64,000 bases of DNA, taken from NCBI GenBank assembly GCA_017506865.1, contig JAFCMP010000007.1:434001-498000 (forward strand), written 5' to 3'. Position numbers and translations under genes: made by a program. A model generated the notes under the pieces. The model did no database searches and was not told the DNA's origin. It worked only from the letters and a program-made list of their open reading frames with translations. Positions 3,201-44,583 of the stretch are shown one piece after another. The stretch is from Tribonema minus (taxonomy: Eukaryota > Sar > Xanthophyceae > Tribonematales > Tribonemataceae). How positions within the stretch are numbered: the first letter of the stretch is position 1; the number at the start of each line of letters is the position of its first letter.

Positions 3201-3961
3201 ATGATTGCTGCTTTCGACCCTAACCCTAGTAAACAACAGGTGCACGCCGGGCGCCGCCATGCTGACGATCAAGTGCAATTGCCTGTTTGGTGATGTGCAT
3301 ATATGGGATACTGGAGGTGCCCGTTGACATGGACACAATAAACGGCTCCTGCTAGAGCACAGTTGCAGCTTCCATGCTGCCAAGCGGGTTATGCCAGTTT
3401 TGGAGTCCTGCAGTGCACTTCTCAGTGCATGCTATACACCATCGGTCGCTCACGTGCCGCAGGCATCATGCACAGTTTGCCCCCACCATATGCACCGACC
3501 GCGGCAGCAGCAGCGCTGCAAGGCCACGCAGCCGCGGGCACTCCTTCTTTGCTGGCGTCGGCGTCGGCAACAACAACCCTAAACCCAACCCTAACCCTAA
3601 CTGTAGCCCGAATGCAGCACCCGCGGCGCTGGCAGCAGCAGCGGTTGTTTCATGAGTGATGCATTAGCGGCTGGCCTTGCGGCGCTTTCTTGATGCCCTA
3701 ACCCTAACCCTAAGCAGGGGGCAGCAGAAGGCCTCGAATGCCAACGCGCAGGGGTTCGTGCGGCAATTATTCCATGAGTGATGCATCAGCGGCTGACGCC
3801 TTGCGGCATTCTCTTGATGACGCAGCAGGGGGCAGCAGAAGACTGCGAATGCTAGCGCGCAGGGGTTCACGCGGCAAGAGCTCGCCGGCCACGGCTGCAA
3901 GGTGGCGGGGCACACGGGCGAGTGCGTGTTGAAGACGCTCAAGCAGCTCAAGCTCATTCAG
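269..3961 (+). CDS. Ska1-like kinetochore protein, 3 exons seen, 5' end outside window and last exon not found
   Basis: Three exons join in phase: 269-584 (donor gtgagt), 1816-2039 (donor gtatgt) and 3829-3961 (donor gtacat). Phases are 0 at the first junction and 2 at the second. The first exon encodes a charged helical stretch rich in Arg, Glu and Gln that could be coiled coil. The second holds FLALPTSIRGRCRLDDVQ, which resembles the start of the Ska1 microtubule-binding domain (a Phe, then Pro, then GR followed by a helix). The third continues with GFTRQELAGHGCK and then TGECVLKTLKQLKLIQ, resembling the Ska1 winged helix. Ska1 proteins couple kinetochores to spindle microtubules. The match is by motif order only. 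Upstream exons lie left of the window and the short last exon could not be placed. Both edges of the third exon have been duplicated into the introns. Ska1-like is likely but not proven. Confidence 0.55.
3651..3875 (+). repeat. 122-bp direct repeat carrying the start of the last seen Ska1-like exon
   Basis: The stretch 3651-3772 is repeated at 3773-3875 and beyond. Both copies begin catgagtgatgca and end in the agcagggggcagcagaag acceptor and exon start. The upstream, intronic copy contains an inserted CCCTAA triplet array. The copy used in the gene model is the downstream one, because only it stays open and in phase. Confidence 0.8.
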
Positions 3962-4100
3962 GTACATGCTAGCAATGTTGTTCAGATGTGATGGTTGAAG
4001 ACGCTCAAGCAGCTCAAGCTCATTCAGGTACACGGTAGCAATGTCGTTTAGATGTGATCATTGAACACGCTCAAGCAGCTCAAGCTCATTCATGTACATA
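3928..4100 (+). repeat. 66-bp tandem repeat of exon end plus splice donor
   Basis: The exon end (gaagacgctcaagcagctca followed by the donor gtaca) recurs with an exact 66-bp period; the unit starts at 3931, 3997 and 4063. Further degenerate copies can be traced near 4155-4195, 4255-4300, 4648-4680 and 4752-4790. All lie downstream of the exon, inside the intron. Confidence 0.9.
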
Positions 4101-4799
4101 CCCAACTGTTCCAACATACTACTTCGTGCAGGCAATGTCGTTTAGGCCGTCGATGCGCGTTGAGACACTCAGTCTTTAGAGTTGGCTCATTCAGGTACCT
4201 ATATACTAGCAGGCAATGTCGTTGAGAGGTGACCGTGCATGCGCTGCGCTTTGAGACACTTTGGCACAAGATGGTCAAGCTTGTTCAGGTACCTACATAC
4301 TATCAGGCAATGTTGCTTAGAAGTGACCCTCAACGCGTGTCGGGACACTACACAAGTCTTTATAGTCGCCAAAAAGTACATGTAGGTTCTGGTGGCAAGC
4401 TTGACGTCAATCATCTGGGCTGTTTCTTGCCCTCAGCAAGGGTTGATGTAAATGAACAATTAGCAATATTTGAATAATCCAAGACCCAGCATGAATGCTA
4501 TGCGCGTGCAGTGTTGATTTCCTGAGAGATTATTGGCTCTCCTGCTTGACATGCAGTGGTGAGGAGGTGTGTTCTTGCAGGGCAAAAAAAGCCAGGCTCG
4601 TTCCGGTACCTACTTGTCACAGAAGGATATTCATGCCGTTAATGAAATTGCAGAGTTGAGACGCTCGAGCAGCCGAAGCTTGTTCTAGCACTTGTTACTC
4701 ATCAAGTACACTGTGTTTTCGCAGTGTATTCACCATATGTCAAGGTAGTGTGTCCTCAAGACACTGAAGCAGCTCAAGCTCATTTGGGCGCATGGTGTT

Positions 4800-6327
4800 T
4801 TTGACATCGTGACTGTGCGCCGCACCCGGATTTGCGGAGGGACTTGTAAGTATCTGCCTCAGTCATTACAGCGCTGACATGCCCCAACAGCATACGCCTG
4901 TACACGGGAAGTGCACAGTATGTATTTGTACACCTCTATGAGGGTCCTAACTTGTGCAGGGTTAGGGTTAGGCTTAGGGTTAGGGTTAGGGTTAGACCTG
5001 TAAGGCGCTGCTGTAGTACCACTTGATGGCGCTGCACCATGCAATGCGGAAGACACAGCGTTTAGTTTTTATACCCAATAATGCCTCCTGTGGTTATTAT
5101 GGGGGGCCTTCGTCTCTGCTATGTTTGACACGGTCACCAGGCAGTTTGTCTAGCATCTGTGCTGAGCTGCATTCCGTGCAGCGCTGGCTTTCACTGCACG
5201 CATGTTTGGACCACTGATTGAGCAGTGTGCAAGAGCAAACCTGCATGCATGCCAACTGATCATGCTTCACTCTTCCTCTGTGGCCATTGCAGGAGCAAAA
5301 AGGGATGTTCTCTCTTGCATCTTAAGGATTGCTGCCAGCAAGCTGCTCGCGCTCAAGGCACCACCAGATGTATGTACAAACTGCGCTCAGCAACAGGCAG
5401 AGTTGACAACAGGGCACACGGCACGGTGTGCTCCAGCTGCAATATGCTGGGTAATGCAGAAACTTGTGTGCCCACGTCCACGAGCTCTCCATCTGGGCAC
5501 ATTTTTCAATGCCGATTTCAAATTAATTGTCTATGGCACGCATTCCTCCGCTGCAAAACGTCCCTGAGCTATGAGTGGGCACGTTCGCTTTATGGCATGG
5601 TGGCAAGCCGCAAATGTGCACTTCTCTTTCATGACTGCAGCAACCGCGACTATTTTTTGACGCATCGAAATAAGCCATCCCGCGAGCGATGCAGGAGCTG
5701 GTGTCAGTTAAAGACATAGCGGTGCCGGATATATTGTTCGAGAACCCTTTTGATAGCGCTCGGCGTGAAGGCATGAGCGGCGTAGCCGTTTGGATGTACC
5801 AATCGGCCGTCAGGGGCAGCTGATGTCTGAAGCGAGCGAACGCGGTCGAGCACCGGTGGAGTTGGGGATCTTGCCGGAGCACTTGAACTTGAAATTAGAC
5901 GACCCTTTTTTTTGTGTGCGGCCAGGGCTGCCAGAAACAAGGGACGAATAAATCGCAGCAGCGACAGGCGTTAGCCACTTGCCATACCAAAGTGCTATAC
6001 TATCTCTTTCGCTATCACAGCACCGTGGCAATCAATCAATCACAACGTGGCGAAGGGTCACTGGAGCTCAGATTTCAGCAAAACGATTTTAGCGTGCGTC
6101 AAAACAAGCCTACACACACAGCCTTGACCACACCACAATATACGCTAAGGCGATCAGGCCAGTGATACGACGCACGAGCCGACCAACGCAACAAGTCTGG
6201 ACGCAACAGACCGTGTAAAGCAACAAATAAAACTCCGGCCGCCCGTTTTCACCAAGCAGAGAGAGCGTACCCACGACGAGCACGCACTTACAGCAGCGGC
6301 AGAGATCGACGACAGCAGGCAGTATCG
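4800..6327. other. Spacer with telomere-like motifs, no gene supported
   Basis: A run of TTAGGG-type hexamers lies at about 4960-4995. Minus-strand open frames at 5.5-6.0 kb show no recognisable domain and no good splice context. The Ska1-like last exon and the promoter of the gene at 6.3 kb may lie here, but neither could be pinned down. Confidence 0.4.
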
Positions 6328-7764: not shown

Positions 7765-7841
7765 AACAGTCATTGGAACTTCCGCGGACGAGGACCTCAG
7801 GCTGCTGACATTCGCATGAAACGGTCATTGAAACTTCCGCG
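7741..7841 (+). repeat. 55-bp tandem duplication over the end of the PH-like CDS
   Basis: The unit ctcaggctgccgatatttgc through tccgcg (from 7741) recurs from 7796. The duplication covers the proposed stop codon, so it may mark a splice donor rather than a true gene end, as at other exon edges in the window. Confidence 0.8.
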
Positions 7842-7849
7842 CGGTATGT

Positions 7850-10105: not shown

Positions 10106-10110
10106 GCAGC

Positions 10111-12531
10111 TCAGCAGCTCTCAGCAGTTACGTACAGTTGCGTGAGGCGCTGGAGCTGTGGGTGGTTCCAGTAGTTCCGGAAGGCCAGGTCGCGCGACGG
10201 GTCCGGCGTTTGCGTCTGCAAGCGCATACATAGGTACACACATTCATCACTGTGAGTTGCTACAAAGGCGTTGTCGATGTTGCTTGTGTAACGTGCACGC
10301 GCAAGCGTTGGCGCGGGAGGTGCTCGCCTTGCCAGTACTGATGTTGCACTTTTGGAATGTGCTGCGTGCGCGCACACTCAAAGACGGTGCAGTGGCAAGC
10401 ATTGATGACGGCGCACATCTGTGCGCCAATTGCATGCATGCGCGCAAAAAAAACACCGCGTCTGCGCCGCCACTACGACAGCAGCCATCGCGCTGCCTGC
10501 AGGGCAAGCCTCGCTGAGCATCACCTATCGCATGCACGCCGATATATATATACTTCAGTTGCTGCTATAGATATAAATATACTTGAAGTATATTTATATC
10601 TATAGCAGCAACTGTTCCGCTAAAGCAGCAGCCATCGCGCGCTGCCACCAACGCACCTGCGCGCGCCGCGGCAGCTGCGCCTGCAGGCTGAGCGCTGCCT
10701 CCAGTTCCTGCAGCGCGCTAACCGCGTCGCCGAGCTCCGCGTGCGCGCACGCCACGGCATAGCGCGCCGCCGGCGAGCGCGGCGCCTCGTCGCGTGCTGC
10801 GCTGAACACGCAGAGAGCGCACTCTGCGTCGCCTGCATCGGCAGCACACGGTGGAGCAGCGGGGGGTTATTACATGTTCTGAGCGTGGTGTTGCTGTAGG
10901 GGTAGGTAGGTACTGTGCGTGCCTCGACGCGCGCGGCGCTGAACACAGAGGGCGCGCTCCGCGTCGCCTGCAGCGCCACGCATATGGAGTGGAGGGAGGT
11001 AGTGGTGGCGGCTCGTGGTTGTTGTATGACCCCTCTCAGTGGGATGGTTATTGCTGCGGCAGGGGGGGCGGGGGGGGGGGGGGGGGGAGGGGATGTGGCG
11101 CTGAACACGCCCTCCGCATCGCCTGCAGCGGTTAGGTGGGGGGAGTAAAAGGAGGCGTTCATGTGTTGTTGTCGGTGATCCGTGGTCGGCGTATGGTGTG
11201 GCGGGGCTGAAGTGGGCTAGGTGTTGCTGAGGGGCAGCATACCCAGCCTATACGGCATCTTTGATGCAGCATCGTGAGATCATAGGTCCATAGCATACCT
11301 TGTCTGAGATATGTGCGCGCGGGGATGAGCACTGCTGCCGTCAACCTGTGTCCTCACCTGAGCTGGACAGGAGAGCGCCGTAGCCATGCACGAGCTGCGC
11401 CCACTCGCCAGCGCTCAGCGTACGGCACTCACGGCTCAGCGGCACTTCTGCCGCGTAGGCAGCCGCAAAGTGCTGCAGCGCGCGCGAGAGCGTGGCCGCT
11501 GCTCTGTTTCCCTCCAGTTGCTCCTCCTGCTGCTGCTGCTGCTGCGCCGGCTGCTGCTGCTGCTGTGGCGGCGGCGGCAGCGCTAGCAGCTGCGCGCGGT
11601 GATCGTGCTGCTGCTGTAACAGTACCGATGCGCCAGCGTACTGCTGCTGCTGCTGCGGCGGTGGCTCCTGCTGCTGCTCTTGCTGCTGGAGGCACTGCTT
11701 CATGTACAGAGCGCCCAGCAAGAAGTGGTCACGGGCAGTGGGGGTGTGATCGGTAACGACGTTGATGGCACCCAGAACTGCCGACAACACTGCCTCATCG
11801 CCCGCGCGGGCTTCAGGCTTGCAGAGGTGGATGTCCACGTGGACACCATCCACGTCGAGGTACACGCGCATGTGCTTGTCGACGCGGATGGGCGCACGCT
11901 CCACTGACGCCGACGTCGCCGAGCTGCCACTGCTGCCGCCGCGCAACCCACTGCAAGAAAGCAGCTCGGGCCTTAGTTGCGCTCCGTAGTAGCTGTTCGC
12001 GTCGGCAGCTGTTTTCGCTGCTGCTGGAGTACCAGCAGACGCAACAGGCCTCGTTCGTGGCGCTGTGCGCTCAATAGAGTATTCCACGACCTTCGCTGAA
12101 TGCAAGGCCTCGCCAGCTCCGGAAATGAGCTTCACACCCGATGCGCCGCCCTCTGCCAAGCGACGCGCAGCTCGATCTCTGCGCTGGGCAGCTGTGGTGG
12201 CTGCGGAGCCGCCATCGGCCGCCGCCACGGAGTGCCTTAGAGTTATGTGCATGGTGACATTCGACTCTGTGTCCACTGCCTTGACGTGCGTCATGGGCTC
12301 CAGAACGACATGCCTCTCTAGGATGCGAGCACTCTGCGAGTGTAGCTTGACCGCCGCTCCAAGTTCAGGCAGGTAAGCTAGCAGTAGAGGCTGAGGCCGC
12401 CTCTGCTGACAGCATTCCACCTCCTCTCTTGCTTTGGAATGTGTGCATGTCGTGGAGGCAGCAGCGGCAGCGGCGGCGGCGATCAATGAGGCCCCGCCGC
12501 GGCTCAGTGTCTGCAAGCGCGCCAGCAGCAT
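10111..12531 (-). CDS. Gln-rich protein with TPR-like C-terminal part, three exons, unknown function
   Basis: Exons on the minus strand are 12531-11358, 10832-10657 and 10215-10111, with donors gtgagg and gtgcgt and acceptors ending in tgcag; phases (1, then 0) agree, giving about 484 residues. The start chosen is the Met of MLLARLQTLSRGG; the frame is open to 12738, so an earlier Met is possible. The first part holds LEPMTHVKAVDTESNVTMHI and MRVYLDVDGVHVDIHLCK, both beta-rich in look, then poly-Gln runs. The second exon (ARYAVACAHAELGDAVSALQELEAAL) has the A-G-A spacing of tetratricopeptide helices. The last exon ends RNYWNHPQLQRLTQLY. The N-terminus could be a targeting peptide. No family was recognised; the exon structure is well supported, the function is not. 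Confidence 0.6.
10556..10614. repeat. Near-perfect palindrome, 28-bp arms with 3-base loop
   Basis: The left arm 10556-10583 starts cagttgctgctatag; the right arm 10587-10614 is its exact reverse complement, and the loop is tga. The arms are AT-rich towards the centre. It sits in the second intron of the Gln-rich gene. Confidence 0.95.
10800..11127 (-). repeat. Three copies of an exon start with acceptor in the Gln-rich gene
   Basis: The start of exon 2 with its acceptor (plus-strand form cgctgaacac ... cgcctgca) occurs at 10800-10836 (used), 10938-10973 and 11099-11127. The two extra copies lie in the intron upstream of the exon in gene orientation. Between the second and third copies lies an 18-base poly-G tract (11070-11087). 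Confidence 0.8.
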
Positions 12532-12739
12532 GGCAGCGTGTGGCTCTCGCGCCGCTGTACACGTTTCTTTCACAAAAAACTTGTGTGTTCCTGCGTTTCG
12601 TGACGTCACAAGAGCAGCAGCGCCGGAGTCCTGGGTCGTAGACCAGACCCAACCCGGGACTGTGTGCGGCTGAGCATGCGCAACGCGCTGCGCTTGACTT
12701 TGAGGCGCGTATGTGAGAAAGTGTGTCATGCAGAGCATA

Positions 12740-14697: not shown

Positions 14698-17600
14698 TCA
14701 CGGCAGCTGCAGCCTTCGCCGCTGCGCGGACGCCAGCTTCCCTCCCCCGTCACCACTACCCCCGCCGCCGCCGCCACCGCCGCCGCTGCCGCCGCCGCCT
14801 CGACCACCGCCGCCGCCGCCGCCGCCATAATCACGCACGCCGCGGCCGCCCCCGCTGCCGCCTCCGCCGCCGCCATCAATGCTGCCATTGTCGCCACCAT
14901 CGACTTCGCTGCGCAAGCCGCGGCGGCGGCGGCGGTGCGTGCGGTAGTACGTGCAGCTGAGGCCGTACGCGGGCCCGTTGGCGGCGCAGAACTCGCGCAG
15001 CGGCGCATCGAGCGGCGCGCGCGCCTCCTGAGCGTTGACCATGAGGTTGGTGTTCGCGTGATCGCCGTACGCGCCGTAGGACACCGCGTCGGGGTCGTAG
15101 ATGCGCTGCCAGTAGGTCAGCTCTGACCTGCGCGGCGGCGGCGGCTGGCGGTTGGCGGTTGGTGGTTTCGTGCGCGCATGGCGAGTCAACCGATTGCAGT
15201 GCGTATAGCATTCATGGTGTGTACTTCTATATAGTTGCGTGGTCGCCGTACGCGCCGTAGGACACTGTGTCGGGGTCGTAAATGCGCTGCCAGTAGGTCA
15301 GCTCCGACCTGGGGTGGGGGGGTTAGGGAAGGGTCAGGGTAGGGTTAGGATTAGCGGCGGCGGGGGACAGGTCGGCGTTAGGCAGCAGTTGGTGTGTGAG
15401 CACGCGGCGTTTCGGCCGGCCGACTGCAGTGTGCATATGGCATGCGTGTTATATAGCTCCGACTCGCGCAACCGCGGTTGGCGGTTGGTGATTTGCGCGC
15501 GCCTGTTGCCGTGGTGGGGTACTTGTTCTTGCATGATTTCGCTTGAGGCGCGAAAAATTTTCACATGGTTTCACACCGTAACGGAAGAAGGACCGATGTT
15601 CGGTCATATGATGACGCCCTTCGAAAGCGTGTGCTCAAATGCAGGGATGGGGAGGCGGAGAGCCATCTCTCAAAAGATTGGGGGAGGGGGGGGGGAAGGG
15701 GCCGATGAGGGCTACTGCTGCTATAAATGACGCGTGTTTTCAGTCGCAGCGCTACCAGCCCACCCCAATGAGCAAAACCAGAATCAGTTGTGCACTTCCC
15801 CAAATCAACCTGTGGCGCCGTCAACCCAATGCAATGGTGTCCGCTGCACGAAAGGTTTGCTTGGTAACACCGCCAATTGACGATGCATAGCACCACAAGC
15901 TGAAATGACCACTTGACGTCCACGCAGGTGCAGCAACTTGAAGTTGAAGTGTTGCACTCACCATCCGCTGTGGTTGTTACCAATGAAGATGTCAGCGTGC
16001 TTGCAGACGTCCTGGTCCAGCAACGCGCCCTGTACATTGTGTAACTGCCGTAACTGTGCACCCATGTCTGTGTCTGGCGCCAGCAGCAATTCCTTGGTGA
16101 AGACCTGCAGCCATGACAGACGCATCAGTGTCATGATGTGAATGATCTGATGTATAATGTTACACAACACTACTTGTTGATATTATATAGAGCACCCATG
16201 TCTGTGTCAGGCGCCAGCAGCACTTCCTTGGTGAAGACCTGCGGCGTTGACATACACATGAGTGATATTGTTACACCATCTTGTATGGAAGTACATTGCC
16301 GGCGTTGCAGTCTGTGGCATTGACACTGCCGATATGCGCGTCAAGCGATAGCAGCACTTCCTTGCTGAAGGCCTACAGGCAGGGCAAAATGAATGCGTTG
16401 AACTAATCAAGTACGCCAGATGTATGATCTTGCTGTATATGCTGGACGTAAGGTTACTTCTAGAATGATCTGCCTGTATGTTCAACTTGAGGTTCATTCA
16501 GCACATGCTGTGAAGCGCACCCCTGGAGTACACATTACATGATAGCACTATCAGAAGGGACGCCTGCAGATCAATAGTGCAAGGATGCGCGTGCCGTACC
16601 TACCTACTCAAGTACAGTAGAAACACGTGAAGTTACACATCATACTCCAAAGTAGCCGTTTTTAGCCATGCATATAGCTATGCGCCGTGACAGTGGATGC
16701 ATTGACTTTTGATTTTTTGGTCAATTTTTGAAAAAAAGGCAGAAATGCGCATGAATTTGGTGACTTGCGATAGCGCAAATGAAAGCAGACACTAAAAGCT
16801 TTCGAATGATGCCACCAGCAAAGTGCGCAGCTGTAGTGGTCAGTAGTTCACTTAGGAGGGACCCTCGCCGAGCGCCGTGCTCAGCAGCGCTAACGCGCTG
16901 CTAGCTCGCGCCTATGATGGGAGCGCACTTTTCTGAGGCCAGTTTCGGCACAATAAGAACTTTCTGGAACTTTTTCATTATGTGAGTCACCCAAAATTCA
17001 TGCGCATTTCGGATCAAACTTTGAAAACAAGCCGATCAGTCAAAAACCCTATAGTTAACGCCAAATTTGTAAGGGAACCTCTTTGAGCGCCTCTGTAGCT
17101 ACGCACACGCACCCAGAGGCCGTGGCGCAGGTCTGCATGTCCCCCTATGCTATAGTGCCGCCTGCTTGCCAGCTCACCGCTGCCACAAGGCTCACTGGCG
17201 CGTGCCCAACCCACCGCCACATTTCAATATATTCGCATACATAAAACCCGTTATTTCGGGAGGGGAGCGGCACCCCCCGAGGGGTCTGAACAGCGTGGCA
17301 CAACAACACCACGCCACAGCGACGCCGGGCGAGGACAGTGCCTACAGCAATAAGATAGAACGTTAAGTGTTCAGGCCATAGCACCTCAGCGCGGTATGCA
17401 CGGTGGGGACAAGTAGAAACTGCGATCAATCAAATTCAATCCTCGAAGTCACTGCATCCACTGTAGGCATTTAATTTGTTGCTGAACACCTCTACAATTG
17501 CAGCAACCGAGTTCCGCTTTCTCAGTGCAAAGCGGAAGGCACGTCACCTGAGTGAAGTGCGCCGACAGCACGGCGACTGTGTCCGACAGTTCTGTCGCGT

Positions 17601-18630
17601 GGCTGCCGGCGATGTAGAGCGTCTCCACCTTAGACAGCGCATGGCCATCTGCAATCGTCGCGCCGATCTTGCTGGCTATTTGCTCCAGGGTGTAGAAGCC
17701 GGGAGGCCTGCACGCCAGCGCGAGCGGCAGTCAACAACAGTGTGGTGTGGGGCGTCACCTGATGAGGTTCAAGTGCTGATTTGTGGGAACTGCGCCGCAC
17801 TCGCTCGTGATTATGCGCTCTCTGCCTATCGGCTTCACAGAAAAAACGCTCTTGCTCATAATGACACCTATGTAACGTTAAGGGTAGGTACATACTGCTG
17901 CTCATATGCCTGAGCACAACCAACGGACCCCGCATGCGGTGAACCATCAGATTTGTCTCCCGGACTTGATACATGCACGGTCACTGACTCACTCACTCAT
18001 TCACTCATACACTCCCAACTCATCCACTCACCCGCCAAAGGGCCGCTGGAAGGCTGCCTCCATGCATGCATGCAGGCACGGGTACGGCCCACCCGCCGCC
18101 AGCACCGCGCGCAACAACTGCACGAAGTCCATCACTCACTCACTCACTAACTCACTCACTGACTCACCCGACGAAGTGCCGCTGGAAGTCTGCCTCCGCA
18201 CGCACGTGCACGCACGCGTACGGCCCGCGTGCCGCCAGCACCATACAACAGACTCACTCACTTACTTACTCACTCACTCTACAAAGTGCCGCTGGAAGTC
18301 CGACTCCGTGCGCAGGTGCAGGCACGCGTACGCCCCCCCCCCCGCCGCCGCCAGCGCGCTGCGCATGCGCCGCACCATCGCGGCGAGCGGCGCCGCCGGC
18401 CGCATCGCGTGCAGCGCCTCCGCCAAAAAGTGCTGCCCCGCATGGAACCTCATGGTCGCAGGCGGCGGACCGATCAGCTCCACGAGGGTATTCGGCGCGG
18501 CGCGCGCGCAGGCGAGCGCTGCCGTCGACTCGGACTGAGACTCTACGCCTGCGGGGACGCCGTCGGGGCGCGCGAGGCGCAGGCCGCCGTGCTTCTGCAG
18601 GAAGGCGTCGAAGCTCTGCCAGCTGAACAC
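14698..18630 (-). CDS. O-fucosyltransferase-like protein, four 3' exons, 5' exons not found
   Basis: Minus-strand exons are 18630-18278, 17707-17548, 16104-15962 and 15127-14698, with phases 2, 0 and 2 and GT-AG ends. Hallmarks of the GDP-fucose O-fucosyltransferase fold appear in order: FSWQSFDAFLQKHGG; a catalytic-type HLRTESDF (the His-x-Arg-x-Glu-x-Asp motif); YTLEQIASKIG; ETLYIAGSH, a nucleotide-binding-type strand; FTKELLLAPD; and HADIFIGNNHSGW, which is typical of the C-terminal part. The protein then ends in a long Gly-rich tail from about 14.9 kb. Such enzymes transfer fucose to protein or glycan acceptors in the secretory pathway. The first exon seen starts in mid-domain behind an acceptor, so the N-terminal signal-anchor region must lie above 18.65 kb; it was not recognised there. 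Three of the junctions have duplicated copies in the introns. Confidence 0.75.
15238..15308 (-). repeat. Intronic copy of the last-exon start, O-fucosyltransferase-like gene
   Basis: This repeats 15062-15127 at an offset of about 181 bp: the same acceptor, then the codons for ELTYWQRIYDPD with a few substitutions. It lies upstream of the used exon in gene orientation. Confidence 0.9.
16192..16373 (-). repeat. Two intronic copies of the third-exon start, O-fucosyltransferase-like gene
   Basis: The block gcacccatgtctgtgtc ... gaagacctgc, which contains the acceptor and the codons for FTKELLLAPDTDMGA, is found at 16058-16106 (used) and again at 16192-16245 (close copy) and 16330-16373 (diverged copy). 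Confidence 0.85.
18034..18241 (-). repeat. Two intronic copies of the HLRTESDF exon end plus CACT satellite
   Basis: Copies at about 18034-18118 and 18171-18241 repeat the exon end (plus-strand aagtgccgctggaagtc) found at 18278-18360. Each is joined to a run of the tetramer cact, which contains repeated gtgagt donor-like sequence on the minus strand. Confidence 0.85.
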
Positions 18631-28000: not shown

Positions 28001-29451
28001 AATGATTCTTTGTGTAGAGCTTGTCTATGACCTGCGGTTAGGATTAGAGTTGGGGTAAGGGTAAGGCGGCTGGGAGTTGCAGCGAGGTCAACGACCACAG
28101 AGAGTTCCGCTTTGACCGAACGTTGTGTGGAGCTTGTCTTTGACCTGCAATGTGCGGCAGGGAGGTGCAGCGAGGTCACCCTCTGAGAGCTCTTGTTTCA
28201 CCTTGTAAGTTGAGAGCTTGTTGATGCGTCCTGCAAAGCGGCGTTTGCAGCAAGGTGAACCCGTACGTGTTCATCTTAGCAGACATTGTCTTTCCACAAC
28301 TGGTCAGCCCTGGGGCGATGACTATGTAGAGCTCCTCTATTACGTGAAAAGCGCAGCACACAGAGAAACAGCAGGGTGGACCTCTCTGAGGACACGATTG
28401 ACACAATTTCTCCTCTGAATAACGACTGGCCTTACATGAGCATCACCAAGTGTCAAACTTACATTCAATGCTGCATGTACTACCGTTGTACTGCTTGTCA
28501 GTCCCAATTGAGCTTTGACCTCGTCAGCACTTGAAGTCGATGACAGACGTTGTGTATATCAAAAGGTCAGCCTCACGGCGACTTGCAAATTTCAGCCATC
28601 AACGCAACCCATTCGATGTCGGGTGCCACACGGGTGTCAAACGACACATTGTGTAAAATACCAGTTCGACGGATACCCCATTAGTATGTTTGTTGCCAAG
28701 CTTATCAGTAGCTGTTTTACGTACGCAATGGGCACGCAGTCGTTAAGCGGCTGGAACACGAGCTGTTTTATATGCTTTTTCGAAAATCTTCACGACAGCA
28801 CAAGAGCGTTCAAATTACCTGGAAAGCACTCCAGCTGCTGCCCTCGCTGTAGCTCTGGCTGAACACACAGCGCTGGTTGGCTCCGCAGTTGAAGTTCCCA
28901 TGGCAGTCAGGGCACTTGGTCAGCGTCGCCGTGCTGCTGAGGTCAAAGTCCCAGTAGGAGTCCGTGTGGTCCCCGCACGCCTTGCAGCCCTTGCAGGGGA
29001 AGGCTGTGAAGTGGCTGCCGGTGTCCAAAATGACGCTGACCCTCTGAGGAGGCGTGCCCACGTAAACATAGGCAATGTGAGTTCCGTAGCCGGGAATCAG
29101 GGGGACTTCCTCCACCACCATCGCCAGCCGACCATCAGCCAATCGCCTGGTGCGCCCGCTGCCACGGCCCACAGGAGCGACGAAAACTGCGCCCCCGCTC
29201 GCCTGCTCAATGACCTCGTGCACCTCCAGACCTGCAATGCTCTGTCCCGCACCTGCGCTGGAGCTGAAGCGGTACGACGATCGCTGCGAGCCTCCACCAG
29301 TGTTTCCGCTGCGATAGGCTACCGGCAGTGCGTGGGTGTGCGCTGAGCTGCCGTCAATGCCCCGTGTCGCTGGCAACTGCAGCAGGCAAAGGACAGAGGC
29401 CAGGGAGGCCAACGCTGCTGCAGCGCGCCTCATGACGCTGGCACCGGCCAC
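22048..29451 (-). CDS. Membrane-anchored pepsin-type aspartyl protease with Cys-rich TSP1-like region, seven exons
   Basis: Exons on the minus strand are 29451-28819, 27932-27594, 27165-26974, 26273-26071, 25288-24814, 23914-23219 and 22557-22048. All are bounded by GT-AG and in phase (0,0,0,2,0,0), giving about 1,015 residues. In order: a hydrophobic signal peptide; the first catalytic motif VILDTGSHFTAFPC; a Cys-rich insert (CKGCKACGD, CPDCHGNFNCG); FNTQLADGIMGM; the second catalytic motif VIVDSGTTDTYLP; GANFMRDHDVVFDHANKRVG and FAPANCDW, the usual end of the A1 family; an Ala/Pro/Glu-rich linker; a Cys-rich region (PCNAKCPLG, ETRPCTKQC, WSPCDNKCRQRRQW) like thrombospondin type 1 repeats; and a membrane helix (APVAIAVVAALGVVAAAAVW) with a basic, then acidic, tail. 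The layout resembles algal and apicomplexan membrane-bound pepsins. It probably cleaves secretory-pathway or surface proteins. Confidence 0.88.
25360..25405 (-). repeat. Intronic copy of protease exon 5 start
   Basis: The block gtcgcag ... gccgacc ... gcag at 25360-25405 repeats the start of exon 5 (25255-25300). It lies in the intron before that exon in gene orientation. Confidence 0.75.
25691..26000 (-). repeat. Three extra copies of protease exon 4 end in one intron
   Basis: The used exon end and donor (26071-26130, plus-strand cctcttattggcgtggtcaa) is repeated from 25931, 25795 and 25691. Each copy retains cctcttgtt(a)gcgtg, catggtccctca or its close variant, and gttggcgccg in two cases. 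The copies degrade with distance. All lie downstream of the exon in gene orientation. Confidence 0.92.
26376..26441 (-). repeat. Intronic copy of protease exon 4 start
   Basis: This repeats 26211-26276 at an offset of 165 bp (cggcttgacgtccatgcgca ... gcgccgcaaactgcg), including the acceptor. A second copy of the flanking intron sequence (gcacagggggaggtcaacat-like) follows each. Confidence 0.92.
26877..26915 (-). repeat. Intronic copy of protease exon 3 end with donor
   Basis: The block acctgtgccttgctgagctt ... gtcgtcgta at 26877-26915 repeats 26972-27010 with a 95-bp offset and near identity. Flanking intron words such as caacagaaggat also recur. Confidence 0.92.
27321..27499 (-). repeat. 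Intronic copies of protease exon 2 end
   Basis: A close copy at 27430-27499 (caccagccctcgttgtgaag, tactgcatgggcgccgtgcg) repeats the used exon end at 27594-27668. Two weaker echoes (ccaccgtgacccagc near 27330 and tgtgaaccagccttcac near 27390) lie deeper in the intron. Confidence 0.88.
28013..28149 (-). repeat. Intronic copies of protease exon 2 start with telomere-like flank
   Basis: The acceptor-side words gagcttgtctatgacctgcg recur at 28013-28036 and, as gagcttgtctttgacctgc, at 28124-28149. In the used copy (27915-27965) and the first repeat the acceptor is preceded by CCCTAA-type hexamers in gene orientation. Confidence 0.85.
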
Positions 29452-30898: not shown

Positions 30899-33144
30899 TC
30901 AGCCCCCGCACTGCAGCAGCGCCTTCTCTGGCGGCGGCGAGGGCTCCCGCCCCTCCACTATCAGCTGCCGCACCACCATGAGCGCCTGACCCAGCTTATT
31001 AGTCCCCCGCCACCGCCGCTCGTCGAGAGCCTTTGGGTCGTTGGCGGCGAGCCCTATGCCCCAAACCCTATCATGAGGGCTAGCCTCCACCAATAGCCTG
31101 CTGCCCGTGTCCACCAGCTCCCGCCGCAGCGCCGCGTTCTGCGTGAACTTGGCATAGTTGCCGTGGATGACCACCTGCAGGGAGTGACGCTCCCACAGTT
31201 CACTGTTGAAGTTGGGGACCGCGCGCCCGAGCCGCTTGTGCTGCTCCGGATCCGCCGTCGCCAGGATCTGCGCCAGAACGTCGCGGGCGTTGAACAGGCG
31301 CGCCTTGCAGGCCATCATCCACTGCTCCGCGCAGCTGTACGCGACGCCGGCAATCTGCAGGCCCGCGTGCGGGGGCGGGCGAGGCACAGGAGCAGGCAGC
31401 GTGAGGCGTTGTTTTGCAGCCGCGGCACGACAGCATGTTTCAACCTTGTACTTGCAGATATGGGAGTTAGGGCGCAGAGCATATGAGATTGAAAACAAAG
31501 GTGTGCGGTTGAGGTTGAGGCAGTAAACATAGTGCATGGCTTCATGCAGCTGTGTGCTATTGCTTGCATTCTGGCGTGTGAAGCCACATGCATTGCAGCT
31601 TGAGCCAGACACACCTGTTCAGCGCTGTTGACACTGGCTGCGACCTACGATTGGCGGGCGTGGCCTTAGTGACAAACCGTATCAAGGGGAATGCAAGATG
31701 GCAAACTGGCTGCGCGTTAGCACAGCGGCTTTGTCAGAGCAGTCTGTGTTGTAACTTCTGATGCAAGTCTTGTATTGCAAGCACCAAGATGGCCTCATTG
31801 GTGAATACCAAGGGCTCCTTTCAGTCTTTGGACCTGCTGCTCAGCAGCATGCACTTGCGGTGCCTCAACAACGCAGTTCTAATCAAGGTATTGGGGCTCG
31901 ATCCTGTCAGCAAACTTGCAGCACATGCCGATGCTGGTAGGCCGCCATGAAGTTCACTCGAAAAGGTGTTGTAAGCGCTGTGTATGATACCATAAATCGA
32001 TCCTGACTTGGCGAACGGGGCCACTGCATCCGGCCTTAGTCTAGGTCGTCGGAGCTGTCGCGTGCAAGTTCTGAATGGCTGCATTGACTCAGCATGGAAC
32101 TGCCGCCGTGGAGCAATGGCACATGTGTCCGTGAGCACCGCCAAAGGTTACTTGAGCTTGCAGAGCGCATATAACTTGTCACCTAGAGCTCTACGATCTT
32201 TTGATTCGTTTTCATATAATGCATGCGTGCAAGCTACTAAAAGTTTGCCTCAGCAATAAAGAGGCTTGAAAGCTGTGGTGTTGACTCGGTCACGCTCCAG
32301 AGTCCTATGGCGCAAGGAACGGTCATAAGCATGAATGGCACATCAGCCCAACGCTGAGATGTGCTGAAGAGTTGTCGCCGAGGCCAGGCTGAGTGCCAGT
32401 ACCTAAGCTGTGTTCTTCCTACATGGCGTAAACATATATATGACTCGTGTTGAAGTGTTGATGGGTATGGGACGAGCCGTATCGACCAATCCGCTGCGTC
32501 TGATGAGCATGCTGGAAAAATTGATGGCACACTATGCTCATGGCATATATCTGTCTTCAACCTACCTTGACCATCAAAACCTATTAGCTGGTGTATTTTG
32601 TTCCAATAAGCGATTAGCACTCCAGTACTGATGCTCTAACTAATGTTTCGACAGTATAACTGATGGGGACAATATTTCACAGTGCGCACCACAAATGGCG
32701 AAGGTGTCCACTGCGACAAAGCGAGCCGTGTGAAGCTTGTTTCACTTCTGTACTGGTTGCGCTAGCTAGCGATTTGCTAGATGTAACTGATATGTAGAGG
32801 GGTTTTCATACGCGCACCTGAAAAGGCGAAGGTGTCCACTGCACCAGAAATCCTGGCGGCTGCCAGAACAAGACCATGTCGCCTTTGATATGCACCGCGC
32901 TGTGGTCGAATGGCGGCTCCGTTTCCGAATCTGCTGCCACCTTTCGCTCTCCAACTTTCCTGGGTCGCCTCTTTTCCTCACATCGCTCCTGCAACTGCGT
33001 CATCTTGCGCAAGCTCTGGGCCCGGGCCAAACTGGGAGCAAACTTCAAAACTGGATCCGCTTGAAGATCCATCTTCAGCGTGGTGTAAGGAGGCCAGGCG
33101 GCAAAGAGCGCGAGAGCTGGTGCGCACCCATGGTGGCTCTGCAT
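30899..33144 (-). CDS. NADAR-domain N-glycosidase (YbiA/RibX-like), two exons
   Basis: Exon 1 is 33144-32818 and exon 2 is 31354-30899, phase 0, donor gtgcgc, acceptor ctgcag, about 260 residues. The junction joins GDMVLFWQPPGFLVQWTPSP to IAGVAYSCAEQWMMACKA, exactly as the NADAR fold continues. Further family motifs are LGRAVPNFNSELWE, VIHGNYAKFTQN, LLVEASPHDRVWGIGLAAND and WRGTNKLGQALMVVR. Family members cleave N-glycosidic bonds, in reactive riboflavin-pathway intermediates (a damage pre-emption role) or in ADP-ribosylated guanosine. An N-terminal Lys/Arg-rich extension of about 85 residues is unusual. It may start at the internal Met at 33072 instead, or carry a targeting signal. The domain call is firm; the substrate is not determined. 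Confidence 0.88.
32693..32720 (-). repeat. Intronic copy of NADAR exon 1 end
   Basis: The block atggcgaaggtgtccactgc repeats the exon end at 32823-32842 (aggcgaaggtgtccactgca), about 130 bp into the intron. The adjoining gtgcgc-type donor is also echoed just below it. Confidence 0.85.
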
Positions 33145-33907: not shown

Positions 33908-36900
33908 ATGCTCAGCTTCAAGGCCCTGCGGACCCGGCTGGTATGGCTTCTGGGCCTGTGTGCTGCAGCCGGCATAGCCGCAAACTACAAGTTCAACTAT
34001 GGCCCGCGCTTAAGCGCTGCCTCCAGCCCACACGGCTCAGAAGCACCCCCACACTCCGCCACACCGCAAGAGAAGCAGCCATCGCCAGAGGCACAGACAG
34101 CGCCAGAGAAGCAGCCTTCGTTAGAGACGCAGCCTGCGGCAGTGCCGGCGGCGGTGGCAGCGGCCGCTGCGGCGGTAACCGCGGCAGCGGCGGCGCTGGT
34201 TCCGTGCGATGGCGACGGCTGCGGCGCCGCGCTGCAGGACATGCGCTCGGCGAACGCGCAGCTGCACGCCGCGCTGCGGGGCGTCGGCGCGACCGACGAA
34301 AAGAATTATGCACGCGAGTCTGTTGGACTGCGCGGCGGCGCTGTGAAAGCAAAAGTTGAAGTTGAGGAGGCGCCGGCGCCTGCGGCAGCGGAGGACGTGG
34401 GTGTTGCGGCAGCGGCAGGGAGGGAGTGGAGTGCGGCAGCGGCAGGGAAGGAGTGGAGTGTGCCGCCGGCGCAAGTGGAGGGGCCAGCGGATACTGCTGG
34501 TGAGGCGCGGGGGGGGCGGTCGGCTCGGCTGCCAACGCTCATCATCTATGCTGCGGTGCGTATGTACTTCTATACATGTATGTATGTATGTGTGTGTACA
34601 GCAGTGCTCAGCACATGGTGGTGACTTGCGCGTTATGAGCGTTGCCTGCGTGGGGCTGGCACTTCAGAAGTGCGCGCTGCAGAGATCAAGCCTCAAAGGC
34701 CCGCTGAGCAGTGTGCGCTGCAAAAATTCAGCCTCCAACGCCCGTTCGTTTGTGCGGCAGCCGTGCTGAGCACTGCTTTGTACCACACATGCATCGCTGG
34801 TCGCTGCCATCTCAGCAGCTACATGCTTGCGTCATGCTATCCGGCGCTGGAGTACTCATTGCTGAAGCGCTTTGCTCAGCAGCATCTGTTGGAGGAAGTG
34901 ATGCCATGGGGGCACGGTTGAAGTTGACCTGAACAGAAAATTCTTCAGTACGTACTACTGTCCGACATTGCCAGGACCTGACGCGACGGTGAAGTTGCAC
35001 GCGCCCTGGAGCAGTGCGCTCTGAGCACTGCTGTGAGCGTCGCCCCTCTGTCACGCGCCTGCGTATCACCGCGCCTGTGCACGTCAATGATTCAGCCCCC
35101 CCCACAAGATTTTTGTTATAATGAACTCTTCGTGAAACACCTTATCCCAACCGCAACATCGCTTTCAATGCTGACTCTGGCCCTGCTCTCATCCTGACCC
35201 CAGCATCGGTGAAGTGTGACGACTCGTATGAATATGGCTTTACGGACGGTCGGCCATGACAGCATTGGCTTCTTCTTGTTCCTGTACAACGCTCTACTGG
35301 CACAGCAGTACCCGCAATACACGGCAGTTGTTACCCCCAACACATTAATCACCAATTGAGGGGTTGGTTTATGGTAGCTTTGCGCTCAACCCTGACTATG
35401 ACGGTGACTCTGACCCTGTCCCAGAATCTGAGTGACCTGCAGGCTAGGCTCGACCTCAAACCCTGACCCTGACTCTGACAGTGACTGTGACTCTGACCCT
35501 GACCCTGAGTCATCCGCAGGTCGACGATGGCGAGGAAGGTTCCTGGGACCGGCGCGACAACCTGCGCTTCTTCCTGCGGCACGCGCTCCTGGACCATTCC
35601 GAGTACCAGTTCCTCATCGTCATCAACGGGTGCCACCGCATGGACGTGGCGAAATATGTGATGGCGCGCAACGTGCACGTTCTGGTGCGCGAGAACGTGT
35701 GCTTTGACGCGGGGGCGTGGCTGGCGGGGCTGGACTACATGGCGGAGGTTCAAGAGAGGGTACGTATTGGTGTCTGCAGCGTGTACCTACCCCGCCAACA
35801 GCGCATTGCATCATGAAGGTGGTGACTGTTTATTGTCAACGGGTAGCCCTCTTGCTTTGACGTGGGGCGTGGCTGGCGGGGCTGAACTTCAAGAGAGGGT
35901 ATGTATCAGTGTCTGCAGTGCGTACCTACCTCGCCAACAGCGCATTGCAACACGAAGGTGGTTACTGTATAAAACCAACGCGTGCCCCTCTGGATTCTCC
36001 ACAATCTGTACAGTAGTGCTGCTGAAGCGGTTACAGAACTGGTTTCAGTGAGGTGAGCGGCGCGTCACACCGGTCACAGCAGAACGTGTTAGCACCACTT
36101 CAACCTGCTGTAACTTCAACTTTAACTGCTACACCAGGCGGGACGGCCGCCCTTCAAGCGATACGTCTTCTTCAACAACTCGGTGCGCGGCCCGTTCCTG
36201 CCGCCGTGGCTCCGTGGCGACAGCAGCGGCGGCGGCGGCGGCGGCGGTGGCAAGGTCAAAGGCAACAGTGTTGCCGGCAGCAGGCGCCTCCATGGCGACA
36301 CCCCTGGCGGTGGCAGCGGCGGCGGCAGCAGCAGCAGCGGCGGCAGTGGCCTTGCTGCGCACGGCGGCGGCGGCGGCGGCACCACCAGACACCTCCAGAG
36401 CGGCAGCGGTAGTGAGGTCGATACAGTTAGTGGCGGCGTCAATGCTGTGGCCGACATTGCTGGTCGCGGCGAAGGCGGTGACAGCGGTGGCGACGGCGGT
36501 GGCGGCAGCAGCTACGGCACTACAGGCAGTGGCAGCGGCGGCGCCGGTGACGACGACAGCATGACGGGCGGCGGCGGCAGCGGCGGCGGCAGCGGCGGCG
36601 GCAACGGCGGCAGCGTCGGCAGCGGCGGCGGCGGCGGCAGCAGCGCCCCGCGCTTCGACTGGGTGGCGGCGTTCACGTCGCCGCTGAACAAGCGCGTGAA
36701 GCTCGTGGGCACGAGCGTCAACTGCAATGGGCTGGGCAGCGACGACGGCGGCGGCGGCGGCGGCGGCGAGGGCGAGGACGCAGCGCCGCCGTCGCTGCGC
36801 ACGCTGCACCTGCAGTCCATGGCGCTGGCGACTGACGACGAGGGGATGGCGTGCTGCTTCCGCCCGACGCTGGAGTCGCCCCAGTGCACCGCGGAGTGGG

Positions 36901-38097
36901 GTATCGGGGAGGTGATCTGGTACCGCGAGGTTGAGTTTACGGCGCGTATGCTGGCGGCGGGGCACGCTGTCGCGGCGCTGCTGGCGATGTGGCGCGGCGT
37001 CGAGATCAGCGTCGCCAACAGGTACGGTGGTAGTGCAGTGATGCCCGAGGCGGTGACCGTGTTTGCAAATGGTACTTGAAGTGTCATACTTCATGAATAA
37101 ATCTAACATCAATAAACGTGCTGCGTGTGCTGGCGGCATGACGCAGCGTGGAGACCAGCGTCGCCAACAGGTGCGGTGATGCGGCAGTTCACTGTTCGTC
37201 CAAGTGGTACTGAGATTTCAAGTTCAGGTACTACGTAGTCGCGTACTTCTGGTGAAATACTTCAGATGCAAGTGACACATGTTTGCCCTTGATACCAGTG
37301 TTGCCAGTAGGTAGAGCAACAGTGATTTCAAGTGACACCGAAAGTAAGCGTGCAGTACTGGAGGTGTCGTGCTACATGCGCAGGCTGCATGGCGCTGTAT
37401 CGAGATCAGCGTCACCAACAGTTGCGTCACAGGTTTCAGCCGCAACGCTGAGAAACGCAGCTCTGCGTGGTACTTTCAGGGTCCTTGTCTCAAAACTCAC
37501 TGGTATATTTGCACCGCGGTGGCGCCACAATGCGACTGGACGACAGCAGCACCGCCTACAGATGATCGAGAAAACAGACTGAAAACCCTGAAACTCTGTG
37601 CCACTAGCGTACCCGTACTGCGAATATACTCGCATACCTGCATACACTGCTGTCACTCTGAAACCGTGTGTTCACTGCAGTAGCGTACACTGCAAATATG
37701 CTCCCATACCTACATACATAACCTGCTGCCGTTCGCGCTCAGCCCTCAGCGCACGTCCGTCGCCGCTTTCCGTCGCTCCCGTGCGCGCAGGGAGGAGGTC
37801 CTGCAACGCTGCGCGCGCGCACACACGCAGGAGAATGTCTTTGACGTCTTCTACGCCGGCAACTACGGCCCTGGCATAGATGTGCACCCGTTTGAAGTCA
37901 TGTACTTCAAGACCAACCGTGGCGTGCAAGAGCTGCAGCTGCAGGCCTACACAGAGTGGCAGGACCCTGGATTCTTCACGCAGGAGGCGCGGCACGCGTT
38001 TGTCGCGCAGCGCCGCGTGTGCCCTCCGCCTTCGCAGCCGCCGAAGCGGAGGTTGCGGCTACGTGGCCTGCAGCACGATGATGCTCATCTCTTCTGA
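33908..38097 (+). CDS. Type II membrane glycosyltransferase-like protein, copy A, four exons
   Basis: Exons are 33908-34555, 35520-35759, 36138-37021 and 37791-38097 (phases 0, 0, 2), about 692 residues. The N-terminus has a signal anchor (LVWLLGLCAAAGIAANY) followed by a low-complexity Ala/Pro/Glu stem, the layout of a Golgi type II protein. The lumenal part carries RLPTLIIYAA, RRDNLRFFLRHALL, YQFLIVINGCHR, FDAGAWLAGLDYM, RYVFFNNSVRGPF, FDWVAAFTSPL, KLVGTSVNCNG, LHLQSMALATDD and EVMYFKTNRGVQ. The order (an N-G turn, then an N-S-x-R-G-P motif, a V-G-x-x-x-N-C motif and H-x-Q-S-M) fits a widespread algal, plant and fungal family related to rhamnan-synthesis-type glycosyltransferases. The acceptor is unknown. 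Gly-rich inserts of about 120 residues interrupt the domain. Copy B downstream is a paralogue. Confidence 0.8.
35398..35519 (+). repeat. CTGACC-type satellite before the acceptor of exon 2, copy A
   Basis: The intron end holds many ctgaccctgactctgac words in tandem, a variant of the CCCTAA-like filler seen in other introns, and runs up to the ccgcag acceptor. Confidence 0.7.
35854..35967 (+). repeat. Intronic copy of exon 2 end and donor, copy A
   Basis: The exon end (gctttgacg ... ggcgtggctggcggggctg ... caagagaggg) with its donor and about 65 bases of following intron (gtgtctgcag ... gccaacagcgcattgca) is present at 35700-35828 and again at 35854-35967 with an internal shortening. The unit therefore spans both sides of the splice site. 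Confidence 0.92.
37128..37425 (+). repeat. Two intronic copies of exon 3 end, copy A
   Basis: The used end (cgtcgagatcagcgtcgcca acag, donor gtacgg, 37009-37027) is echoed near 37150-37176 (agcgtcgccaacaggtgcgg) and near 37396-37425 (cgagatcagcgtcaccaac). Confidence 0.88.
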
Positions 38098-42749: not shown

Positions 42750-42782
<33 letters not shown>

Positions 42783-44583
42783 GGCGGCGGCAGCAGCGGC
42801 AGCTCCACCGGCAGCGCCAGCGAGTCCAAGCTCTCAGCAGCGGGCAACGGCGGTCCCAGCCTGATCAGCGCCCTGCGCGGCAGCGGCGGCGGCGGCGGCG
42901 GCGGCAGCGGCAGCGGCAGCAGCAGCGCGCAGCCCTTTGACTGGGTGGCGGCGTTCACGTCGCCGCTCAGCAACACGCTGAAGCTGGTGGGCACGAGCAT
43001 CAACTGCATGGGCGCGGGCGGCAGCGGCGGCGCGGGCAACCTCGGCGAGCTGCACGTGCAGTCCATGGCGCTGGCGACGGACGACGTGGGGATGGCGCGC
43101 TGCGTGCGGCCGACGATGGAGGCGCCGGCGTGCGACGCGACGTGGACCAAGGACGCCGTCATCAGGTGAGGGGGGGGGGGGGGGGAGGGGGGGACAAATT
43201 GTTGAAGTTGAAGTTGGGATTGAAGTTTAAGGCGGGCGTGATTTGTGTCTGCCGGTCTGACCCCAACCTTGAAGCTGGCCCTTAACCCTAGTGTGATGCA
43301 GTGCGCGGCTTGGCGCACAGCACGTAGTGAATGCCTTGAAGGGTTACAGTCGGGGTTAGAGCTGGGACCAGCGCTTGTTGGTGGTGTGGTGTGACAGTAT
43401 GGGGGCAAGGCTGTGCTCCGGTCCGTTTTGTGGTAAGCTGTTCAAGAAGGACGAGTCTCAAGATTAGGTAAGGTAGATAGACCTGCAACGCTGGCCGACA
43501 TCGAAGAACTGCGCGAGCTGCAGTGCGCAACCAAAGCGATAGCACAGCAACTTGCACTGTTGACAGTGTGTTAATAATGGTGCCGCCTCAAGCCTCCCTA
43601 TCCCCCCCCCCCCCCCCTGTGTAGTGTAATTGGATTCAACAGCACCTAATTCATACTAGGAAACTCGCCGCAAGGTACCCAGTGGCGGCGCTCGCCAACG
43701 GCTCGGGCTGAATGTGGTGCTGGTGATGATGCCCAGTCGACATCGCAAAGCTCATTACCTGCGCAGATGCATTGCCAATCTGTCAGATAAACCAGAGGAT
43801 ATGTGCGCAAGAAAAAGCAAGCTGCCGCATACGGTGATATTGAAGGCATGCACGCACCAGACGTCCCTCCCGCCTCTCTTAGGCCTACTATAGACACAAG
43901 CCCATGAACACCCCTACATGGTAATGGTATACCATTTCACACATAATCATACACATAATCACCTCGAAGTACGTTTGTAGAAAAGCAACGATTGAATGCT
44001 GCCCCCCCCGCCTCCCCCGCCATCCGCACAGGAACCGCAATCCAGTTCACGCAATGTATGCGCAATCAACACATTATCATCTCTCGTGCATGTGGTATCA
44101 AACACAGTGCTAGTCTGAAGCCCTGGGGGGTCTACGATAGCCAATTCAGTTGCACCAAGCTGGACCGGCCTAACCCTAACCCTACCACCCCCCCCCCCCA
44201 CCCCCACTTACACACACAGGAACCGTGAGATCCAGTTCACCACCAGGATCCTCGCCGCGGGTTACTCCGTGGCAGCGCTTATCCTCGGCTTCCGCGGCGT
44301 TGACATCAGCCTCGCCAATGGCGCCGCCGTCGCTGAGCGCTGCCGCAGCACCGCGCGCGGCGCCATCAGCGACGTGTACCTCCCCAACAACTACGGCCCG
44401 CGCGCGGACGTGAGCCCGCTTGAAGTCATGTACTTCAAGACCAACCGCGGCGTGCAGGACGCGCTGCTGGAGGCATACACGCGCTGGGTGGACCCGCACT
44501 TCTATGAGGAACGCGCCCGAAGCGCGTTCCTCGCGCGTTCCCGGCGGTGCGACGGCGGTGCCGGTGCTGCGCGCAATGTGTGA
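40517..44583 (+). CDS. Type II membrane glycosyltransferase-like protein, copy B, four exons
   Basis: Exons are 40517-40969, 42001-42211, 42616-43165 and 44220-44583 (phases 0, 1, 2), about 525 residues. The start Met opens MQLTPDRRMAWAIWGTALCV, a signal anchor, followed by an Ala-rich stem. Domain motifs parallel copy A: RLSTLIIMAT, FRRENLRFFLRNGLL, YQFLIVVNGCHR, FDAGAWLAGLQHM, RYILLNSSVRGPF, FDWVAAFTSPL, LKLVGTSINCMG, LHVQSMALATDD, AAGYSVAALILGFRGVDISL and EVMYFKTNRGVQ. A Gly/Ser-rich insert interrupts the domain at the same place as in copy A but is shorter. Only the first intron position is shared with copy A; the other two differ in place and phase. It is likely a Golgi glycosyltransferase; the reaction is unknown. 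Confidence 0.8.
43660..44060 (+). repeat. Intronic copies of exon 4 start, copy B
   Basis: The used start (acacacaggaaccgtgagatccagttcacc, 44213 on) is echoed at about 44028-44055 (cgcacaggaaccgcaatcca gttcac). The following exon words (ctcgccgcgggttactccgt) are echoed near 43665-43700 (ctcgccgcaaggtacccagt). Poly-C tracts separate the copies. Confidence 0.85.

Follow-up and report, generated by a model that had tools for sequence, protein, structure and literature searches.

Direct copies of exon edges in the window

The window analyzed here is a stretch of 64,000 nucleotides (nt) from the alga Tribonema minus (contig 7, positions 434001 to 498000, of a 158-Mb assembly), and in its multi-exon genes the ends of exons, together with their splice sites, recur as direct copies inside the adjoining introns. 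The genes include an aspartyl protease and an O-fucosyltransferase, whose models are backed by Pfam across their junctions (PF00026 and PF10250, respectively), two glycosyltransferase-like paralogs, genes at 0.3 to 4 kb and at 6.3 to 7.8 kb, putative models bearing the edges 10832 and 15127, and an exon at 30912-31352 that Pfam identifies as a NADAR domain (PF08719), with support that does not extend to the edge at 32818. The Pfam search gave no match for paralog 1 or for the genes at 0.3 to 4 kb and 6.3 to 7.8 kb. The splice sites of these three genes, of paralog 2, and of the 10832 and 15127 models were placed from open frames, paralogy, and ab initio scores.

A preliminary description of this DNA had listed 16 exon edges followed on the intron side by degenerate copies. 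Each edge was probed with 40 nt of exon plus 15 nt of intron, aligned locally to 1000 nt of intron-side sequence; p values were derived from 150 dinucleotide shuffles, and the exon side and the reverse complement served as controls. A significant intron-side direct copy was found at all 16 edges (scores, 33 to 88; p values, 2.9e-5 to <1e-12), with the best-scoring copy 66 to 188 nt from the edge. At p<0.01, there were no copies on the exon side (0/16; lowest p, 0.014) and none in reverse complement (0/16; lowest p, 0.033), and in a self-comparison of the window, too, local repeats were numerous in direct orientation and few in inverted orientation. The copies are thus real, and their similarity exceeds low-complexity background. 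They also include the splice site, as had been described: GT or AG was retained at 14 of the 16 edges, the exceptions being 27594 and 25288. Among 16 other window positions, two of which (6835 and 29433) are not splice sites at the coordinates used, no intron-side copy reached p<1e-3 (0/16; lowest p, 1.1e-3), with one exon-side match (22076, p=0.003) and one inverted match (43165, p=0.003). Overall, 16 of the 32 probed edges had copies; in the aspartyl protease and O-fucosyltransferase genes, 8 of 14 junctions had them.

The aspartyl protease gene, on the minus strand, carries six of these edges. At its donor edge 26071 (26068-26144), serial copies lie at 25930-26006, 25793-25866, and 25691-25747 (whole feature, 25691..26144). 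The donor edge 26974 has a copy about 95 to 120 bp downstream (26793..27009), and the donor edge 27594 (27576-27666) has a copy at 27410-27497 that has lost the donor GT (27410..27666). The acceptor edges are 25288 (25261..25402; copy at 25360-25402, splice AG lost), 26273 (26210-26342; copy at 26375-26514, within 26210..26514), and 27932 (27913..28148), where copies of a 99-bp unit, detected by Tandem Repeats Finder (TRF), start at 28012. In the O-fucosyltransferase gene, also on the minus strand, the donor edge 18278 (exon part, 18278-18359; feature, 18025..18359) has copy edges near 18168 and 18031, on the combined evidence of TRF, self-BLAST, the probe, and Pfam; the acceptor edge 16104 (16058-16130; feature, 16058..16264) has a copy at 16192-16264 and a third, weaker one at about 16330-16371, seen by eye.

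The remaining minus-strand edges belong to putative models: the acceptors 10832 (10784-10843, copy at 10921-10978, p=4e-9; 10784..10978) and 15127 (15056-15130, copy at 15237-15311, 93% identical, p=2e-15; 15056..15311), and the putative donor 32818 (32812-32842, copy at 32684-32714; 32684..32842), which is 5' of the NADAR-domain exon. On the plus strand, the donor edge 3961 (3928..4099) shows a 66-bp unit in 2.6 copies, each consisting of 34 nt of exon end, the donor, and about 32 nt of intron (TRF and self-BLAST; score, 88); a whole-genome search placed this unit at one site. The acceptor edge 3829 (3645..3877) has its exon part extending to 3877 and an intronic copy at 3645-3766 (score, 65; p=2.6e-11). 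In paralog 1, the donor edge 35759 (35700..35991) lies in a head-to-tail 153-bp unit (35700-35852 and 35853-35991), and the donor edge 37021 (36979..37426) has copies at 37128-37178 and about 37368-37426. The weakest of the 16 is the acceptor edge 44220 of paralog 2 (44030..44260; plus strand), with a weak copy 188 bp upstream (p=3e-5).

The two glycosyltransferase-like paralogs also differ in an intron position. Their corresponding introns (35520-36138 and 42001-42616) differ in phase and interrupt the coding sequence at points separated by 29 nt; on these gene models, this near-intron pair could be a case of sliding or of loss and gain.

Copies in genes for conserved proteins

Eighteen genome loci were found via conserved proteins and modeled by splice-aware protein alignment. 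Most models were clean; doubtful short segments occurred in those of PP2A (L025), Ran (L027), GAPDH (L034), and CK2 (L036). A copy was called at a probe score of at least 34. The junction counts exclude introns beside an aligned exon of <40 nt, such as the last Ran intron of L027, which itself holds further copies; low-complexity probes were left out of the one-sided probe rates, and a satellite at the start of L021 was left out of the unit analysis. This satellite-like array (L021 1-3744) shows lags of 270, 506, 743, and 980 bp, in steps of about 236, and its repeats are 94 to 96% identical. An ab initio gene model that over-split exons was set aside, and a second one was used for gene calls and for training the splice sites of the aligner; the second model calls some intronic copies exons, and the argument therefore rests on the verified loci.

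In 17 loci with 116 junctions, 25 junctions had an intron-side copy, none had an inverted copy, and one had an exon-side copy, the last at a doubtful exon of 43 nt; with a further HSP70 locus added, intron-side copies were present at 25 of 130 junctions in 18 loci. Paralogs were counted separately here; collapsing them reduces the 25 copied junctions to about 20. The copies are locus specific and frequently serial, and the genes that carry them have no relation to one another (Ran, 14-3-3, PP2A, PCNA, and GAPDH are among them); serial direct duplication of edges and splice sites recurs well outside the window. The richest locus was PP2A L025, with copies at six of eight junctions. The preliminary description had found no clear case on the exonic side; this held for the verified genes but not for ab initio junctions, where exon-side copies were present at 9 of 147 and intron-side copies at 19 of 147.

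More than one copy was found at 12 of 23 junctions examined, as at the Ran donor in L026, with copies at 183, 362, and 564 nt. The nearest copy was the most similar at 7 of the 12 multicopy junctions, which reduces the reported decay with distance to a tendency. Nearest lags were 90 to 216 nt, and copies overall lay about 66 to 680 nt inside the intron; in NAGNAG-type tandem sites, by contrast, the second site lies a few nucleotides from the first, a spacing matched neither here nor in the window (66 to 188 nt). Introns with a copied edge were longer (median, 938 versus 459 bp; 21 versus 44 introns; p=2e-5), although longer introns also give more room for the search. Recognizable local duplications covered 22.9% of intron bases. 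Three of the 58 verified introns start with GC, and one GC-donor intron has a copy preserving the GC donor; the introns at 1955 and 3138 of L032 (coding-strand coordinates) are GC-AG.

The exon part of the copies at the 25 verified junctions, read by hand from the junction rows and mostly for the nearest lag, measured 7 to 104 nt (median, 52; mostly 20 to 85). Exon windows were copied in 24/113 tests at the edge itself, 16/102 at an offset of 20 nt, and 11/99 at 40 nt; the rate then fell to 2/93 at 60 nt, 1/80 at 80 nt, and none at 100 to 160 nt (0/75, 0/60, and 0/44; 0/179 together). The median lag was 157, and the ratio of exon part to lag was <0.56 at all 25 junctions; random breakpoints would give many more long exon parts. 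We propose that a copy with its full exonic context would be too strong a competitor in splicing and would be lost; a mutational cause for the limit of about 100 nt is also possible.

Unit structure and genome-wide spread of the duplications

Among 49 isolated pairs, 15 had a length of 0.90 to 1.15 of the lag, the signature of head-to-tail units, and 3 were longer. Five clean units (61, 63, 78, 118, and 562 bp) overlapped at the join by 0, 0, 5, 3, and 5 bp, respectively; joins of this kind, between neighboring direct copies and with microhomology slight or absent, are what break repair would leave, although five cases are few. The units straddle existing splice junctions and sit in existing introns. 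The 562-bp unit, in a PP2A intron (L022 4327-5454), is a tandem with 99% identity; it is likely very recent and perhaps polymorphic, and it indicates that the duplication process itself is recent.

The wider genome was sampled as 20 pieces of 10 kb (200 kb), each from a different contig other than that of the window and always from one fixed position. Within 1 kb, there were 134 direct pairs and 8 inverted pairs, counting each overlapping pair of an array, and 18 of the 20 pieces contained local duplications. Of 156 direct pairs of at least 30 nt, the window included, 81 had lags of 60 to 200 bp, and bigger lags were partly multiples. In ab initio genes, direct duplications covered 0.14 to 0.15 of the sequence within 30 nt of junctions and 0.07 to 0.14 of introns; inside exons, the coverage was about 0.06 at 60 to 150 nt and 0.10 at 150 to 200 nt. 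The proposal of genome-wide intron lengthening is thus upheld as far as duplications occur throughout the genome and copied-edge introns are longer; its focus on junctions is not.

The explanation that we regard as probable is that break repair frequently leaves small tandem duplications, that introns tolerate them, and that exon edges act as frozen markers. The nuclear genome would gain frequent small tandem duplications, with lags mostly of about 60 to 220 bp and larger ones partly multiples, most likely from staggered breaks repaired by end joining, and these would land with little regard to splice sites. Duplications in coding sequence would be purged by selection; those in introns would be kept and the intron lengthened. 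A unit lying over an exon edge would copy the exon end and the splice site. The site used would be the one that preserves the protein, that is, the upstream-most donor or the downstream-most acceptor, and the other copy would become intron and decay almost neutrally. With the exon original held constant, edge copies would stay recognizable longer than intron-intron copies, so that edges would look like a focus. Copies that include over about 100 nt of exon are missing, probably as too competitive in splicing and selected against, and repeated events, with presumed exchange between exon parts, would produce serial arrays subject to turnover.

In the verified cases, the protein alignment puts the used site at the protein-preserving position. 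Because a used site that keeps the protein leaves the other copy as intron, one-sidedness would follow from selection, and we infer that selection on the protein largely accounts for the restriction of copies to introns, which gives no pointer to a directional mechanism.

Duplications are not specific to junctions

A mechanism aimed at exon-intron junctions, with breaks arising, for example, from cotranscriptional splicing or R-loops, would account for the concentration of copies at edges and for the narrow range of their exon parts (7 to 104 nt; median, 52). In one-sided tests of the verified loci, 24 of 113 exon-edge windows (21%) had copies, compared with 313 of 2891 windows of intron interiors (11%); in the flanks of the genes, the rate was 1.7% (541 tests). 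However, intron windows 200 to 300 nt from junctions were still copied (4/88, 9/80, and 7/78), and unannotated sequence in the 20 pieces and the window gave 151/1598, compared with 19/147 at ab initio junctions, where intron interiors gave 28/493 and exon interiors 11/303. In a decay simulation, the divergence up to which a copy could be recognized was about 1.5 times greater for copies of conserved exons than for intron-intron copies, so that slower decay by itself predicts an excess of about 1.5-fold. On this model, most of the roughly 2-fold excess at exon edges is expected as an effect of detection, the exon partner being conserved. Since duplications occur across introns and elsewhere and the excess is near the predicted value, splice junctions do not seem to be the target of the process, and such targeting is unlikely; a process centered on junctions, as first proposed, is not supported in that form.

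Coding constraint and turnover of the copies

The copies might instead be functional, as alternative or poison exons or as selected decoys. The splice dinucleotides kept in most copies (14/16) are in line with a function, as are the copying of the same exons in both paralogs and the identity of several Ran and 14-3-3 copies to their exons. The differences between exons and copies, however, comprised 104 synonymous and 110 nonsynonymous changes (43 copies at 23 junctions), far from the 58 synonymous and 7 nonsynonymous differences between the exons of paralogs. The synonymous fraction, 0.486, compares with 0.375 expected for a neutral copy and 0.75 for a constrained one; as it is nearer the neutral value, most copies are not kept as coding sequence, and the excess over that value speaks for function in some. 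The copies thus appear to evolve nearly, but not wholly, neutrally, and some may be coding now or may have been formerly. They are also partial exons (at most 104 nt of exon), which, together with the common nonsynonymous changes, sets them apart from duplicated alternative exons. Altogether, a functional role for the copies as a class is quite improbable. A related idea suggested by Ran, that AG and GT bounding the copies delimit mini-exons, showed a slight excess over chance in rows that are not independent, and it is not claimed.

Ran and 14-3-3 are each encoded by two genes with coding sequences 93 to 94% identical, and both members of each pair are copied at the same exons. At sites that distinguish the paralogs, the copies had the exon state of their own paralog in 44 cases, that of the other paralog in 17, and neither in 9. 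Of the four Ran and 14-3-3 junctions compared, three have a best-matching intron tail that serves in one paralog but lies idle in the other, which hints at replacement of the edge, although the arrays align in several registers. These comparisons suggest, as a lead, that the arrays predate the gene duplications and keep exchanging exon parts. A stronger version is tentative and rather doubtful at present: exon edges might anchor unstable, continuously turning-over tandem arrays, in which the exon part would recombine or be copied anew and intron ends and used sites would be replaced repeatedly while the protein stays constant, the sole limit being that a copy must lack the exonic context (about 100 nt) needed to prevail in splicing.

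Weighing of the explanation

Mobile elements, whether introners or transposons, that bring exon pieces into introns are extremely improbable: nothing beyond the recurring pattern favors them, inverted copies were absent from all 116 junctions, and four units searched against the whole genome (best candidates scored), among them those of the window edges 3961 and 26071, matched their own loci and otherwise gave exon-part matches fitting homologous genes, apart from two further matches (C39:204404 and C68:840848), where introners or transposons would place one sequence at many unrelated loci. Equally improbable is a low-complexity background or assembly artifact, since shuffled and reverse-complement controls were low and the copies are diverged and recurrent in paralogs, even though GGC and TTAGGG-like repeats abound in this genome.

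Several observations weigh against frequent, untargeted duplication followed by neutral decay. The splice sites of the verified loci are themselves inferred from protein homology. Seven loci had no copies (two HSP70 loci [0/14], alpha-tubulin [0/6], RACK1 [0/4], and one locus each of PCNA, GAPDH, and CK2). The excess of edges over intron interiors is larger than the 1.5-fold predicted, and a modest true preference for junctions may exist; a uniform process would not predict fewer duplications in gene flanks than in introns. The synonymous fraction exceeds the neutral value with p=0.001, when sites are taken as independent and transition bias is unmodeled. In several copies, the exon part is 95 to 99% identical but the neighboring intron sequence cannot be aligned, an outcome that duplication and drift do not produce without exchange or recopying. 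Finally, most isolated pairs (31/49) have a length below 0.9 of the lag and are not intact full units; these may reflect decay and indels, or spaced copying.

Comparison with known systems

The event is of a known kind, and its scale is unusual. As summarized in PMC4974935, an intron in potato RNA-dependent RNA polymerase (RdRp) was gained by local tandem duplication across an intron-exon boundary; there, as here, coding sequence is affected by the duplication and the surplus copy is spliced out, but in potato the outcome is a new intron, whereas in T. minus the edges of an intron are copied, often in series, into that same preexisting intron, and this in many unrelated genes. Fill-in of staggered breaks by CST and Pol alpha-primase is described in the summary of PMC8355091 as a source of small tandem duplications, with human insertions of <100 bp. 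The head-to-tail unit, the near-blunt joins, and the genome expansion are shared with that system; the lags in the alga are mostly 60 to 220 bp. In Drosophila, novel intron positions arise via sliding or tandem duplication, with position pairs <32 nt apart, according to the summary of PMC2891723 (for intron sliding, see also the abstract of PMC7730772). Duplicated or nearby sites permit a change of splice position with the protein unchanged in both organisms; unlike in Drosophila, the splice positions stay and copies accumulate about 66 to 680 nt inside the intron. Introner elements likewise change intron content en masse, but they are dispersed families, whereas the algal copies are locus specific. 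In the titles and abstract openings of the open-access literature, including reports on algal genomes (PMC7617258, PMC10400597, PMC6330051, and PMC11347835), serial duplication of existing exon edges at such a scale was not found, which is not proof of its absence.

Other features of the window and genome

A short dispersed sequence, possibly the end of a mobile element, occurs three times in the window (4398-4440, 19436-19483, and 20973-21031; 81 to 86% alike). Palindromes that could form hairpins lie at 10556-10614 (98%), 12851-12906 (81%), and 45467-45496 (100% self-complementary). Noncoding interstitial telomere-like repeats of the TTAGGG type are present at 2896-2929, 3575-3601, 4958-4995, and 27937-27965, and a degenerate tandem array of about 74 bp, itself containing 7-bp repeats, extends over 62873-63328. 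In the genome as a whole, there were 92 matches to light-harvesting exons; one such exon best matches fucoxanthin-type chains in PDB, as would suit an alga with a red plastid. A search with the beta-carotene ketolase of Haematococcus lacustris, a query lacking a positive control, gave no match, and an affinity to that alga, suspected from the TTAGGG motifs, was dropped.

Implications

Local duplications in T. minus lengthen introns while leaving the protein unchanged, and they place look-alike splice sites, seemingly not used, next to the real ones. About one-fifth of the sampled junctions of conserved genes (25/130) have one or more such sites within a few hundred bases, accompanied by as much as about 100 nt of the same exon, which makes this genome a natural experiment with many replicates. 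Because the protein reveals the site that is used, it becomes testable how the spliceosome chooses between near-equal sites and how much of the exon it reads. The duplications also offer a concrete mutational route by which introns would grow and intron ends would be replaced without a change in coding sequence.

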